NCBI RefSeq assembly: GCF_903644055.1
Contig: NZ_CAHJXD010000025.1
Span: 1 to 35,260 of the forward strand
Direction: 5' to 3'
DNA: 35,260 nucleotides
Source of the DNA: Sphingomonas bacterium
GTDB taxonomy: Bacteria; Pseudomonadota; Alphaproteobacteria; Sphingomonadales; Sphingomonadaceae
Position 1 is the stretch's first letter; each line of letters begins with the position of its first letter. The notes beneath the pieces were generated by a model, which worked only from the letters and a program-made list of their open reading frames with translations, did no database searches and was not told the origin of the DNA. Positions 5,420-10,111 of this stretch are shown here, piece after piece. The position numbers were made by a program, and so were the translations under genes.

Positions 5420-6985
5420 ATGAGCCTCGTCCGCAACACCGCGACGATCGGCGGGCTGACTCTGGTCAGCCGGGTCGCGGGCTTCGTGCGCGATATGCTG
5501 ATGGCGCAATATGTCGGCGCGGGGCTGGCGAACGACGCCTTCCTGATCGCCTGGCGGCTGCCCAACCTGTTCCGCGCTTTGTTCGCCGAGGGGGCCTTTT
5601 CCTCGGCCTTCGTGCCGGCGTTCAACCGCGAGTTCGGGCGCAAGGGAGGCGGGCTGCGATCGGCGCTAGGCTTCGCCGACGAGGTGCTGGCGATCCTCTT
5701 CCCCGCCGTGCTGATCCTGACGGTCGCGATGATGGTGCTGGCGGGGCCGGTGGTGTGGGCGATGACGGGCGGCTTCCCCGACGGCGGGCCGGACAAGTTC
5801 GATCTCGCGGTCGCGCTGACCCGGATCACCTTTCCCTATCTCGCGCTGATCAGCCTGGTCTCGCTGATGGGCGGCATCCTCAATTCGGTCGATCGCTTCT
5901 GGGTCAACGCGGCGGCGCCGATCCTGCTCAACCTGTGCATGATCGCCGGGCTGCTCTTCTTCCGCGGCGATACCGCGATCGAGACCGCGCATACGCAGGC
6001 GATCGCCGTCACCGTCTCGGGCGTGTTCCAGCTCGGCTGGCTGATCTGGGCATGCGATCGCGCGGGGACCGGGCTGACGCTCCGCCGTCCGCGCCTCAAC
6101 CCCCGGGTGCGCGCGCTGCTCAGGATCATCTGGCCGGCGGCGCTCGGCGCGGGGGCGGTGCAGTTCAACCTGCTGATCTCCACCAGCCTCGCCGCGCGCT
6201 TCCTGCCGCAGGGCTCGGTTTCCTATCTCTATTATGCCGATCGCCTCAATCAATTGCCGTTCGCGCTGATCGGCATCGGCGTCGGAACGGCGATGCTCCC
6301 CGGTCTGTCACGGCAAATCGGCGCGGGCGACGACAAGGGCGCGGGCGTGACGATGAACCGCGCGGTCGAACTCGTGCTGGTTCTCACGCTTCCCGCGACC
6401 GCCGCGCTGATGATCGCCGCCGGCCCGATCATCCGCGCCTTGCTCCAGCACGGCGCCTTCACCGCTTATGACGCGACCGCCAGCGCCGCCGCGCTCGCCG
6501 CTTTTTCGATCGGCCTGCCCGCCAATATCCTGATCAAGGTGCTCGTCCCCGGCTTCTATGCGCGCGCCGACACCCGGACGCCGGTGCGGATCGCGCTCAT
6601 CGCGATGGCCTCGAACCTCGCGATGAACCTCATCCTGATCTGGCCGATGCGGCATGTCGGTCTCGCGCTCTCGACCGCGCTGTCCTGCTGGGTCAACGCC
6701 GGGCTGCTCTGGTGGACGCTGCGCAAGCGCGGCCACTTCACGATCGATGCGCGGCTCAAACGCAGCGCGGGCAAGCTGCTGCTCGCGACGCTGGCGATGG
6801 CGGCGCTGCTGATCGCCGCCAACCCTTTCCTCGCCCCGCACATGACGCGCGACCTGCTCGAACGCGCCTTATGGCTCGGCGCGCTGATGATCGCCGCCGC
6901 CGCCGTCTATTTCGCCGCCGCCTTCCTGCTCGGCGCCTTCCGCCCCGCCGAGTTCAGGGCGCAATTTACGCGACGCCGGGGCTGA
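5420..6985 (+). CDS. murJ: Lipid II flippase MurJ
   Basis: MurJ flips undecaprenyl-linked peptidoglycan precursor across the inner membrane. The 521-residue protein is hydrophobic throughout, with a MATE/MOP-type arrangement of about 14 membrane helices. Family signatures are at the N terminus: SRVAGFVRDMLMAQ, then AFLIAWRLPNLFRALFAEGA and SSAFVPAFNREF, which carry the arginines of the central cavity. Later, SVSYLYYADRLNQLPFALIG and ALLQHGAFTAYDA are also typical. I chose ATG 5420 (MSLVRNTATIGG) rather than the in-frame ATG 5399, because the homologous start is there and GGGGAGAGGG lies just upstream. In related genomes trpS usually follows directly; here small genes intervene. Confidence 0.96.
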   Translation: MSLVRNTATIGGLTLVSRVAGFVRDMLMAQYVGAGLANDAFLIAWRLPNLFRALFAEGAFSSAFVPAFNREFGRKGGGLRSALGFADEVLAILFPAVLILTVAMMVLAGPVVWAMTGGFPDGGPDKFDLAVALTRITFPYLALISLVSLMGGILNSVDRFWVNAAAPILLNLCMIAGLLFFRGDTAIETAHTQAIAVTVSGVFQLGWLIWACDRAGTGLTLRRPRLNPRVRALLRIIWPAALGAGAVQFNLLISTSLAARFLPQGSVSYLYYADRLNQLPFALIGIGVGTAMLPGLSRQIGAGDDKGAGVTMNRAVELVLVLTLPATAALMIAAGPIIRALLQHGAFTAYDATASAAALAAFSIGLPANILIKVLVPGFYARADTRTPVRIALIAMASNLAMNLILIWPMRHVGLALSTALSCWVNAGLLWWTLRKRGHFTIDARLKRSAGKLLLATLAMAALLIAANPFLAPHMTRDLLERALWLGALMIAAAAVYFAAAFLLGAFRPAEFRAQFTRRRG

Positions 6986-7068
6986 TCGCCGACATCGCGC
7001 AATCCTCAATTCGACTCGGGGCCATCGCTGGCTCTACCTTGCGCCGGATTCTTGCGGAGGCGGGGAAC

Positions 7069-7527
7069 GTGCGGGAACAGGGCTTGCAAGAGCTGACCGA
7101 CAGGGAGCGCGATGCTCTTCGCCTGGTGCTCGACCACAGCTTCGACGAGATCGGCCGCACCTTCGGCGTGAGCAAGTCCGCCGTGGCCCAGCGGCTCACC
7201 GCGGCCAAGGCCAAGCTCGGCACGAACAGCGCGCGCGATGCCGCCCGCTTCCTCGGCGAACATGAGGGGTGGCTACACAATCGTACAGGTACGAACGAAC
7301 AGGTTCCCGACACGGCGGCTCCCGGCCTTCTGTCGCTTCGACAGCGCATCATCGGGCTGTTGAAGGGCCGAGGGGAACGCAATGACCTGACGGGGACGCA
7401 GAAGCTGGTGCTGACCTTCGGGGCGGCGCTGATGGTGCTTCTCTTCATCGCGCTTCTGGCAAGCGCGCTCGCCCAACTCGGTACGGTCGGGCAAATCTAT
7501 ATTTCACAGGGGCGAAAGCCTCTTTAG
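7069..7527 (+). CDS. LuxR-type helix-turn-helix protein with C-terminal membrane anchor
   Basis: This 152-residue protein starts at GTG 7069, with GGAGG eight bases upstream. Residues 9-60 form a GerE/LuxR-type DNA-binding domain: LTDRERDALRLVLDHSFDEI, the turn GRTFGVSKSAVAQRL and AAKAKLGTNSARDAARFL. A charged, Pro/Arg/Gly-containing linker follows. A single hydrophobic helix (about residues 112-134, LVLTFGAALMVLLFIALLAS) and a short tail ending SQGRKPL close the protein. There is no receiver or ligand domain. The layout (cytoplasmic HTH, one helix, short outside tail) recalls ToxR/CadC-type one-component regulators, although those use a different HTH family. I recall similar small HTH-membrane proteins in sphingomonads, without known function. 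It probably heads the run of small genes up to 8838. Confidence 0.75.
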   Translation: MREQGLQELTDRERDALRLVLDHSFDEIGRTFGVSKSAVAQRLTAAKAKLGTNSARDAARFLGEHEGWLHNRTGTNEQVPDTAAPGLLSLRQRIIGLLKGRGERNDLTGTQKLVLTFGAALMVLLFIALLASALAQLGTVGQIYISQGRKPL

Positions 7528-7557
7528 CGCGCCCCTCACGGCGCGGGGGATGACGAT

Positions 7558-7920
7558 ATGAACAGCGAAGCGACGATCGCCGCGATGAACGCCGTTGCGG
7601 GCCTCAAGGCCCTGGAGACCAAGGGCATCGCGTTCCTCGAGGAGCATGCGCTCTTCAAGACCAAGCTTCACGCTTTCAAGCGGGCGGGCGGACTTCCCCT
7701 GCTCTACGGTCTCGAAACGCTGAACAGCGCGTCCGAAGCCGAAGCGGCGGTGGTGGACAGCCTCATGCAGCTCGCGCAATGCCATCGCCATCTGGAGCAG
7801 GCGAAGAAGGACCTCGACCTGCGGATCGTCGGCATCGGCGACGAAAGCTGGAGCATGTGCGCCCCGCAGCGCGAGACGGCCGATACGCTCCGCGTGGTCG
7901 GCGGCACCAAGGCCGCTTGA
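7558..7920 (+). CDS. Hypothetical protein, 120 residues, mostly helical
   Basis: I do not recognise a family with a known function. The ATG at 7558 is preceded by GGGGGA about eight bases upstream, and the gene starts 30 bases after the HTH-membrane gene, so the two are probably co-transcribed. The protein appears cytoplasmic: no signal peptide or membrane helix. Its sequence is dominated by amphipathic helices rich in Ala, Leu, Glu and Lys (IAAMNAVAGLKALETKG, SEAEAAVVDSLMQLAQ and HRHLEQAKKDLDLRIVG). A short, less helical C-terminal part contains its second Cys (WSMCAP). Residues 55-90 could form a short coiled coil or bundle. Codon use resembles the neighbours, supporting real coding. Confidence 0.6.
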   Translation: MNSEATIAAMNAVAGLKALETKGIAFLEEHALFKTKLHAFKRAGGLPLLYGLETLNSASEAEAAVVDSLMQLAQCHRHLEQAKKDLDLRIVGIGDESWSMCAPQRETADTLRVVGGTKAA

Positions 7921-7951
7921 CCTCGAAAGGGGCAGGTGATGCGGGAACGCC

Positions 7952-8407
7952 ATGCCCTGGCATGCCTATGTCTATAACGTCCTCCTGCTCTCCTGCTGCC
8001 TGTATGCGGCGGTCAGAGGGGGTGCGCCGGAGCGTGCTGACGCCGCCATCATCCTGCTGGGATCGGCGCTGACCTTTCTGTCCTACTCGCCCCCGGCCGC
8101 CCGTTTTCATGCAGTGGAAGAGTTGGTCTTCATGGTAGACATGGCCGTGCTCGTCGCCTTCGCCGCCGTTTCGCAACTGGCGGATCGTTTCTGGCCGATG
8201 GCCGTGACGGGCGCCCAGCTCGCGGGCATATCCGTTCACGTCATCAAGGCGCTTGCGCCGGACGTCGCGGTGCTGGGATACAGCTTCGCGCTCGCCCTGC
8301 CGGCCTACATCATGCTCGGCTGCATCGCGGCGGGCGTCTATCGCCACCAGCGCAGGCTCGCCGCGACCGGGCGCGATCCGTCCTGGATCAGGCGATGCCG
8401 GTCGTGA
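7952..8407 (+). CDS. Hypothetical integral membrane protein, four helices
   Basis: The 151-residue product has four hydrophobic stretches separated by short loops: residues about 5-22 (YVYNVLLLSCCLYAAV), 29-46 (AAIILLGSALTFLSYS), 58-78 (LVFMVDMAVLVAFAAVSQ) and a last pair around 86-128 (including SFALALPAYIMLGCIAAGVY). The tail is strongly basic (YRHQRRLAATGRD...RRCRS), which predicts a cytoplasmic C terminus. No enzyme or transporter motif is visible. It begins 31 bases after the 120-aa gene and its end overlaps the start of the winged-helix gene by 13 bases, so the four rightward genes look like one transcription unit. The function is unknown. Confidence 0.6.
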   Translation: MPWHAYVYNVLLLSCCLYAAVRGGAPERADAAIILLGSALTFLSYSPPAARFHAVEELVFMVDMAVLVAFAAVSQLADRFWPMAVTGAQLAGISVHVIKALAPDVAVLGYSFALALPAYIMLGCIAAGVYRHQRRLAATGRDPSWIRRCRS

Positions 8408-8838
8408 AGAAAGCCGCGAGCCTCTTGGCGCTGCTGCGATCGTCCGCCGGTGCGCTCGCAAGACGCAGGCGTGTCGTGCGCGGGACGCCGATGGCCGTCC
8501 GGGAAACCGCGATGCACGAGCTTAAGGGCAGACGCAAAATGGAGCATCTCTTCGGCCAGCACCTGTTCGGCGAGCCGTCCCGCGACATTCTTCTCGACCT
8601 GTTCCTGGCGGAAGACCGGGGTAAACCGGTCGCGCTCTCCAGCGGATGGATTGCCAGCGGCGTCTCCGCCGCGACGGCGCTGCGCTTTGTCGCGAATCTC
8701 GAGAAAGCGGGCTTCGTCCAGCGCAAGGAGGATTTCAACGACGGCGACGATATCCACATTTCGCTGACCGCCGAAGGCCGCGACCGCATGATCGCTTACC
8801 TCCGATCCAGCGATACTTCTCCCTCTTCGGCCTCCTGA
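8395..8838 (+). CDS. Winged-helix (MarR-like) DNA-binding protein
   Basis: The 147-residue product carries a winged-helix domain in its C-terminal two thirds. SRDILLDLFLAE begins it. The recognition-helix region is SSGWIASGVSAATALRFVANLEKAGFVQR, which I give here only as residues about 80-110, followed by the wing KEDFNDGDDIHISLTAEGRDRM. This order (helix, 'S..tALR.i..Le..G.v', wing, 'LT..G') is MarR-like. The N-terminal 40 residues are basic (RRRR) and may not be real: ATG 8491 and ATG 8512 are other in-frame starts, the latter with GGGAAA upstream. From ATG 8395 it overlaps the membrane-protein gene by 13 bases. It ends tail-to-tail over the last 43 bases of the opposite-strand small gene. 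Confidence 0.62.
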   Translation: MPVVKKAASLLALLRSSAGALARRRRVVRGTPMAVRETAMHELKGRRKMEHLFGQHLFGEPSRDILLDLFLAEDRGKPVALSSGWIASGVSAATALRFVANLEKAGFVQRKEDFNDGDDIHISLTAEGRDRMIAYLRSSDTSPSSAS

Positions 8839-9029
8839 CCGAGCAGATCGATCGCCCATTGAATGTGCGCGACGGCGTGCATCGCCAGACCTGCGGCATC
8901 GAGCTCGCGGAGGGAAAGCTTCAAAGCCTCTTGGACTTGCCTCAAAGTCTCGCTTTTCTCGGTCATACCTTCTTGTGACGACGCCTCCTCGGTATGAGCA
9001 ATGCTCGTAAGCTCTTGGCGGTCCGTCAT
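8796..9029 (-). CDS. Small hypothetical protein, 77 residues, acidic and helical
   Basis: I do not recognise a characterised family. The product has a polar N-terminal third and a helical core (LRQVQEALKLSLRELDAAGL, then AMHAVAHIQWAIDLLGQ), ending in an acidic tail. Small proteins of this style, with two helices around a short LDAAGL turn, are frequent near HTH genes in sphingomonads as I recall, but I cannot verify that here. The ATG at 9029 lacks a clear ribosome binding site; an internal ATG at 8966 has only AAGG very close. It is divergent from trpS (83 bases) and overlaps the winged-helix gene tail-to-tail by 43 bases. Coding status is probable, not certain. Confidence 0.5.
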   Translation of the reverse strand: MTDRQELTSIAHTEEASSQEGMTEKSETLRQVQEALKLSLRELDAAGLAMHAVAHIQWAIDLLGQEAEEGEVSLDRR

Positions 9030-9112
9030 GAGAAACGCAATTCGGGTGTGATCCTGCGGGACCGAGGTTCCGTCTGCTTGACCAGTCCCGGCGCATGTCG
9101 GAGAGGCTCCGG

Positions 9113-10111
9113 ATGCGCATCGTCTCCGGCATCCAGCCTACCGGCAATCTCCACCTCGGCAATTATCTAGGTGCGATCCGTAACTGGGTGGCGATGCAGG
9201 AGGCGATGGGCCCCGGCGACGACTGCCTGTTCTTCCTGGCCGATCTTCACGCGATCAGCGAGCATCAGGAGCCCATCGCCTTCGCGCGCGGTATTCGCGA
9301 GATGGCCGCGGCGCTGATCGCCTGCGGGATCGATCCCGAGCGCGCGATCCTCTTCCGCCAGCGCGACGTCGCCGCGCATGTCCAGCTCCAGTGGCTGCTC
9401 AACGGCACCGCGCGCGTCGGCTGGCTCGACCGCATGACGCAGTTCAAGAGCAAGTCCGGCAAGAACCGCGAAGGCTCGAGCGTCGCGCTCTATACCTATC
9501 CCGTGCTCCAGGCCGCCGACGTCCTGCTCTACCAGGCGACCCACGTTCCCGTCGGCGAGGATCAGAAGCAGCATCTGGAACTGGCTCGCGACATCGCCGC
9601 CAAGTTCAACACCGATACCGGCACCGACCTGTTCACCTTGCCCGAGCCGATCATCCCGCCGGGTGCTGCGCGGGTGATGTCGTTGCGCGACGGCAGCGCC
9701 AAGATGTCCAAGTCCGACCCGTCGGACATGAGCCGGATCAATCTGATCGACGATGCCGATACGATCGCGCAGAAGCTCCGCAAGGCGCGCACCGATCCCG
9801 AGCCGCTGCCCGACGATCCGGCCTTGCTGGATGCGCGGCCCGAGGCGAAGAATCTGGTCAGCATCTATGCCGCGCTGGCGGGCGAGACCAACGCGCAGGT
9901 GCTGCAACGCTTCGCGGGCCAGGGGTTCGGCGCTTTCAAGCCCGCGCTCGCCGATCTCGCGGTGGCCAGGCTCGCGCCGATCGCCGCGCGGCTCACCGAA
10001 TTGGTGCGCGATACCGCCGAACTCGATCGCCTGCTCGCGCGCGGCGCCGAACGCGCGCGCGCCATCGCCGCGCCGACGCTCGCCAAGGCCTATCAGGCGC
10101 TTGGGCTGTGA
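9113..10111 (+). CDS. trpS: Tryptophanyl-tRNA synthetase
   Basis: TrpS charges tRNA-Trp with tryptophan using ATP. The 332-residue product is a complete class Ic synthetase. [19 protein letters not shown] (residues 7-25) holds the HIGH-type motif, with H14 and the following G16-N17. [16 protein letters not shown] is the typical central motif. KMSKS is at residues 197-201 within [16 protein letters not shown]. The C-terminal helical anticodon-binding region follows. I chose ATG 9113 rather than the in-frame ATG 9095 because GGAGAGG (9099-9105) sits at normal spacing before 9113, and the family normally starts with [12 protein letters not shown]. A single copy of the HIGH and KMSKS motifs, both intact, argues for a functional housekeeping enzyme. 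Confidence 0.97.

Follow-up and report, generated by a model that had tools for sequence, protein, structure and literature searches.

The window analysed here is a stretch of 35,260 nucleotides from a Sphingomonas bacterium (contig NZ_CAHJXD010000025.1, positions 1 to 35,260), in which murJ, ending at position 6985, and trpS, starting at 9095, enclose five small open reading frames (ORFs). These ORFs, named A to E, span positions 7069 to 9029 and had been described in an earlier note on this DNA as a cluster of unassigned genes, which are indeed present. Gene A (7069-7527, plus strand) encodes a helix-turn-helix (HTH) protein with a membrane anchor, 152 amino acids (aa) long if read from a GTG codon; its start, TTG at 7039 or GTG at 7069, is uncertain. 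Gene B (7558-7920, plus strand) codes for a soluble helical hairpin of 120 aa and gene C (7952-8407, plus strand) for a membrane protein of 151 aa with five hydrophobic helices, neither of which belongs to a known family. Gene D (8395-8838, plus strand), which overlaps the end of C, encodes a winged-helix protein of 147 aa, or of 115 aa if translation starts at 8491. The small helical protein encoded by E (8796-9029, minus strand) comprises 77 aa, and its gene is convergent with D, overlapping the 3' end of the latter. Genes A to D point in the same direction and are separated by gaps of about 30 bases or overlap, a spacing typical of an operon. A codon-score gene caller classified A to D as coding, placing the start of A at 7039 and that of D at 8491. 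It did not call E, the evidence for which is weaker. A scan for promoters and terminators gave 0 and 2 sites, respectively, which is about chance level.

That A, B and C constitute a real conserved operon with a fixed gene order is near certain. B was matched in two of 59 genomes, that of the window included, and its first match (29% identity, E 5.6e-4) was found in genome G011, where genes for an HTH-anchor protein, a helical protein and a C-like protein are followed by a RadC-like gene. Neighbouring genes were scored by iterated profiles in a set of 96 loci (the window, L019-L039 and L046-L119), which consisted of the best 30 C matches and of hand picks among the matches listed, chosen for genus spread and from the window's genus. 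In all 96 loci A lies upstream of C on the same strand, and 94 of them show the order A-B-C. The gene sets within 2.2 kb, where R stands for a RadC/JAMM gene, were ABCR (29 loci), ABCD (26), ABCRD (21), ABC (18), ACD (1) and ACRD (1); all six loci that this set contains from the window's genus were of the A-B-C-D type. Among 53 loci of named organisms, 8 of which also belong to the 96-locus set, ABC was found 23 times, ABCRD 14 times, ABCR eight times and ABCD five times, and three loci were incomplete at contig ends. Five places in another alphaproteobacterial family, designated f70, revealed the arrangements B-B-C-C, B-B-C, A-B-C, B-C and A-C when flanks of 1.5 kb were considered. The doubled copies of this family (L192:4440-6219, B-B-C-C; L193:5020-6342, B-B-C) have no A or RadC gene called within 1.5 kb.

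The site at which the module resides in the window was compared with the corresponding site of relatives. The gene trpS was found in 56 of 59 genomes, and the best 30 of its matches served as relatives' loci. In 24 of these 30 loci murJ is located not more than 1.5 kb upstream of trpS; the six exceptions are the window, G005 and G004, all of which have other genes at this place, and three more loci. Within the window's genus, murJ and trpS adjoin in the same order in all seven genomes, and only the window has A to D between them. Therefore, the premise of the earlier note that murJ and trpS are close neighbours in related genomes was right, and the gap between them is variable. It harbours a reverse gene of 397 aa in G005, one gene of approximately 210 aa each in G001 and G003, and, in G004, a 636-aa gene together with a short ORF of low complexity. 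By our reading, the tentative family labels would be DUF2252 (G005), PilZ (G001/G003) and DUF5060 (G004). In G002 and G006, gaps of less than 500 bases contain short ORFs of doubtful status. Since its gene content differs within the genus, as seen at L040:3211-4404, L041:3117-3755, L042:3188-3808 and L043:3170-5080, the gap resembles a hot spot at which small insertions occur. It might be argued from this variability, and from the different genes held by other members of the genus, that the five genes are nothing but unrelated small insertions accumulated in a variable gap. This explanation is extremely improbable, since the order A-B-C-D recurs at unrelated sites; for A to D it is refuted by this recurrence, for E it may still hold. 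The window genome (G000) is a 2.41-Mb assembly rated 92% complete, the six other genomes of the genus having 3.3 to 5.3 Mb.

Within the interval between murJ and trpS, neither an integrase match among A to E nor a tRNA gene nor a convincing direct or terminal repeat was found, as the earlier note had already stated for integrases and direct repeats. A mobile element with its own integrase or transposase gene and with defined ends was not recognized there. A foreign base composition was also considered and rejected, since the GC contents of the interval and of the adjacent DNA overlap, except for a dip near 8500-9250. The module occupies many sites. When both flanks had to match, 125 loci (four of them double entries inside shared contexts) fell into 99 contexts, the largest of which comprised 9, 7, 4 and 3 loci. 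This number is an upper bound because the longest ORFs were taken as flanks, some of which are perhaps spurious; if one shared flank was sufficient, clusters of 27, 13, 9 and 6 loci were obtained. Repeated co-localization at varied sites had been set beforehand as the test of a self-contained module, and this is what was found, along with the single gene order. The two outcomes named as contrary to a module, the same place in all close relatives or ORFs without conservation, did not occur.

It is conceivable that the module is an ancient, vertically inherited regulatory operon which was relocated by ordinary rearrangements and often lost, without being mobile itself. The sharing of sites within clades, the one-flank clusters of up to 27 loci and the failure to find an integrase or ends are in agreement with this idea, and so is the tree of C proteins. 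This tree comprises 142 proteins (136 different, four loci represented twice) and has few alignment columns and many open forks. For 77 rows from 25 genera, 44 changes of the genus label were counted on it, fewer than the minimum of 60 in shuffles. However, 44 changes exceed the least possible number of 24, so that inheritance appears to be partly vertical and partly not. Moreover, copies are located on plasmids, and a stretch of 10.4 kb containing the module is 95% identical between loci of different genera, L131 (Novosphingobium panipatense) and L134 (Sphingobium scionense). The C protein of the window shares 45 and 44% identity with copies from other genera and less with the three aligned copies of its own genus (35, 28 and 25%), although its position in the tree is without support. 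Finally, murJ and trpS retain their order throughout the genus, and only one of its seven genomes has the module. Purely vertical inheritance is, in view of these data, quite unlikely, and the best reading of the many sites and the plasmid copies is that the operon probably spreads horizontally among Sphingomonadaceae. The accessory genes follow the tree more closely than expected by chance: at least 18 state changes were needed for R and at least 24 for D, the minimum of 100 shuffles being 38 for each, which indicates an ordered gain and loss of R and D. The ratios of nonsynonymous to synonymous substitution rates (dN/dS), compared in ten pairs of loci, lay between 0 and 0.39 for the stretches used of the five genes A, B, C, R and D. 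Some of these stretches contain few changes, and for the pairs with L131 the D value refers to a D-like gene about 3 kb beyond the module. By these estimates, the compared module genes are under purifying selection.

The module is common in the family Sphingomonadaceae and rare elsewhere. In the window's family, which was recognized as Sphingomonadaceae from the loci of named organisms, several of them identical with coded loci, and from the plasmid records, a two-sequence profile detected C in at least 176 of 298 genomes. One genome had as many as five C genes, four of which form a tandem array. The count is a lower bound, as not more than 13 candidates were scored per genome. A profile of 40 sequences detected C in 54 of 99 family genomes. 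In the samples of the order and the class, which overlap with each other and with that of the family, C was found in 83 of 196 genomes (82 in the family, one weak match with E 3.5e-4 in another family) and in 7 of 385 genomes (4 in the family, 3 in f70), respectively. Sphingomonadaceae are a large family of environmental bacteria, and at least one copy of the operon is present in over half of the species sampled from it. Plasmids have C-like genes as well, namely in 25 records, all of which belong to genera of Sphingomonadaceae or bear such a name and 8 of which were typed as conjugative. One plasmid copy is that of Sphingomonas sp. AAP5 (E2E30_RS20450-20465), a culturable strain. Four plasmid annotations list the genes as HTH or sigma-70, hypothetical and hypothetical, followed by RadC or JAB, a winged helix, or another hypothetical protein, and one plasmid module is located directly before repC. 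A phage origin of the module was considered and rejected, as C occurred in only one of 50,697 phage records and at two loci among viral contigs. The single phage record (MT835592.1, L123:232-1491) is an unverified human-faeces scaffold named 'Bacteriophage sp.' with B-C-D type genes near its end, and this scaffold could be host DNA. The core genes are annotated only as HTH, hypothetical and hypothetical in the records read, the operon being unnamed, and none of the papers listed by literature searches was, judged by title, on an A-B-C operon.

While the earlier note had described the cluster as free of enzymes, which is true of the window, where C and D overlap and no RadC/JAMM gene adjoins C, 51 of the 96 loci have an R gene at a distance of not more than 2.2 kb from C, in 50 cases strictly downstream. 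All 22 aligned R proteins match the RadC family PF04002, and the JAMM-site pattern E/HxH/S/D was present in 71 of 75 R matches, two of the four misses being second R-like ORFs (L046, L050). R resembles other RadC proteins of the JAMM/JAB type in both respects and differs from them by its place in the A-B-C operon. A Sphingomonas genome paper counts radC among the genes of DNA repair that are linked to radiation resistance, and also lists it in genomic islands (PMC9611098). Some of the additional 'radC' genes of sphingomonads, usually read as DNA-repair genes, find a context in this operon.

The presence of R also bears on the possibility that the module is a conflict cassette of mobile DNA, serving defence, exclusion or addiction. 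According to this explanation, C would be a membrane effector with B as a partner or antidote, A and D would be autoregulators, and RadC would help by processing nucleic acids. The patchy presence, the several C genes of some genomes, the carriage on plasmids and the varied sites would be expected of such a cassette. Further, a 2017 survey describes multi-domain proteins of conjugative elements that contain RadC domains and suggests that these process nucleic acids or nucleotides (PMC5512222), and on a plasmid of Sphingomonas parapaucimobilis (L255:816-4839) a module of HTH, hypothetical, hypothetical, RadC and winged-helix genes is located behind an AbiEii-type toxin gene. B, C and E revealed no match beyond chance to known toxin or antitoxin families in Pfam, NCBIfam and PADLOC, but might belong to undescribed ones. 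Against a conflict function, no PADLOC model was matched by A to E, nor do the neighbours of the module suggest such a function. In 91 loci, 142 flanking proteins were examined, namely the nearest gene on each side as called by our own gene caller, excluding genes of more than 650 aa. They match 179 Pfam families, the commonest of which, matched by 7 proteins, are ordinary, e.g. histidine kinase and SpoU methylase, with three PIN-domain proteins among them, and 43 PADLOC families were matched by one protein each. A membrane-tethered HTH is also unusual for an autoregulator. We therefore judge a conflict cassette to be unlikely. The related idea of a defence island was rejected, as the flanks gave single PADLOC matches only. 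With respect to mobility, no transposase was present among the 25 families listed for the flanking proteins in each of Pfam, PHROGs and PADLOC, and one integrase family, with 2 proteins, occurred among the PHROGs matches listed.

As the earlier note had proposed, A is an HTH protein with a membrane anchor. It matches the Pfam family Sigma70_r4_2 (E 3.2e-8, 33.5 bits, cut-off 25.7), the GerE family remaining just below its cut-off, and shows a single hydropathy peak (2.79), the hydrophobic stretch starting at residue 113. An alignment of 29 rows revealed an HTH, a linker, a conserved juxtamembrane stretch and one C-terminal hydrophobic helix. In the stretch before the helix, N105 is invariant and P96 nearly so, and a loose juxtamembrane pattern fits in 103 of 146 cases. 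The chain ends about 20 residues past the helix, with no domain match in this part, and A has for this reason no outside sensor on its own chain. One-component regulators of the ToxR/CadC type consist of a cytoplasmic DNA-binding domain, one membrane helix and a periplasmic sensor. What A has in common with them is that a single membrane helix tethers its DNA-binding domain; what separates it from them is the other HTH class, the lack of a periplasmic sensor and the additional membrane partner C. Thus, the DNA-binding domain and the anchor of a tethered one-component regulator are present in A while the same-chain sensor domain is missing. A is not an extracytoplasmic function (ECF) sigma factor either, as Pfam and NCBIfam gave no match to sigma region 2 but only the region-4-like HTH, and the Pfam matches of A to E did not include the HisKA, HATPase or receiver domains of a two-component system.

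The closest architecture encountered was that of WP_212599210.1, encoded by plasmid pRW412b of Sphingopyxis granuli, the HTH of which is related to that of A (39% identity over 63 residues, E 9e-4). Like A, this protein has an N-terminal GerE/Sigma70_r4 HTH, followed by what we read as one hydrophobic helix. Unlike A, which ends soon after the helix and has B and C as partners, WP_212599210.1 carries a DUF4019 domain after it, and tethered HTH proteins with a further domain therefore exist in the same bacteria. On pRW412b (L254:1-2645), this gene directly follows a recombinase gene near a Tn3-family transposase and precedes a small hypothetical gene; as predicted from its domain order, its product is another tethered HTH protein on mobile DNA.

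B and C, and likewise E, gave no match above chance in Pfam, NCBIfam, PHROGs and PADLOC. The AlphaFold2 model of B (predicted local distance difference test score, pLDDT, 83) consists of two long helices, residues 3-44 and 52-85. C had been described as a protein with four membrane helices; the AlphaFold2 model (pLDDT 91.4) and hydropathy both indicate five. In an alignment of 40 rows, G23, D63 and Y110 of C are invariant and E27, W81, P82 and H96 occur in at least 90%. The motif RFWP is invariant in a 48-row alignment, but these rows had been gathered by a pattern containing RFWP. A structure comparison of C with VIA gave a best match with Z 9.7 and a root-mean-square deviation of 3.5 over 110 residues, within the range of this tool for helical bundles, and the VIA fold matches were discarded as resembling generic helical bundles. 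At L057:6008-8251, four tandem C-type genes follow one A and one B gene, an expansion of C alone, between genes that, by our reading of their sequences, are GreA-like and Lon-like.

A signalling or regulatory role, as suggested by the earlier note, fits the presence of two predicted DNA-binding proteins, one of which is putatively tethered to the membrane. We consider A-B-C, together with D in the window, to be a horizontally moving operon of Sphingomonadaceae that would most likely act as a membrane-linked transcription switch, a tentative interpretation to which we assign slightly less than an even chance. A would be anchored in the inner membrane, its HTH facing the cytoplasm and hardly any of the chain lying outside, and would thus not be able to sense by itself. 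C, with its five membrane helices and conserved polar residues, may be the sensor, and the helical hairpin B might couple C to A or keep A in check. A signal would then free or change A, which in turn may set the transcription of the operon and perhaps of other genes. D might be a second, exchangeable regulator and RadC/JAMM an exchangeable enzyme add-on that is absent from the copy in the window.

Several observations weigh against such a switch. Two loci (L113 and L114) really lack B, and the calls of A and B are patchy outside of the family, where A was called at two and B at four of the five places (1.5-kb flank), so that the trio holds strictly within the family only. D says little alone because its domain belongs to a large family: the D profile matched 96 of 99 family genomes and, among the matches listed, many lie in open frames of more than 300 aa. 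Foldseek yielded 0 matches at E <= 0.001 for B and C. Upstream of A, no operator motif stands out; the top dyads reached an excess of 11.7 and 11.3 compared to 9.3 in the shuffled control (126 sequences), and inverted repeats were close to shuffles, with mean scores of 4.67 and 4.10 and with 4 and 2 repeats, respectively, scoring 9 or more (145 sequences). A shared operator is not claimed because dyads and inverted repeats barely exceed the shuffled controls. A more far-reaching version of the switch would be that A-B-C represents a new membrane signalling unit, neither one-component nor two-component nor sigma/anti-sigma, in which a sensor-less tethered HTH, a hairpin coupler and a five-helix receptor, all of undescribed families, would have reached more than half of the sampled species of one bacterial family as a cassette to which RadC and winged-helix modules are added exchangeably. 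We regard this possibility as rather unlikely. As a three-gene core is defined and natural add-on variants exist, the function is directly testable in culturable strains.

The accompanying genes of the window deserve brief mention. The small opposite-strand gene of the earlier note, E, exists as an ORF, but it is not in the conserved core. E-like small ORFs made up six of 1715 ORFs near modules, the window included, and one of 5045 farther away, with a motif chosen post hoc. E was rejected as a core gene and may, at most, be a loose associate of the module. Of the 96 loci, 49 have a D-type gene not farther than 2.2 kb from C, strictly downstream in 48 cases. The C-terminal half of D, containing the winged helix, gave sub-threshold Pfam matches to MarR, IclR and HTH_34. 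A protein of about 280-360 aa, in which many of the D-profile matches lie, has a D-like winged helix at its C-terminus and is encoded near purA- or lysA-like genes in the five loci read (L239, L246-L249; names by sequence reading). It shares this domain with D and differs from it by a long N-terminal part and by its location outside the module, and it looks like an undescribed core regulator of Sphingomonadaceae.

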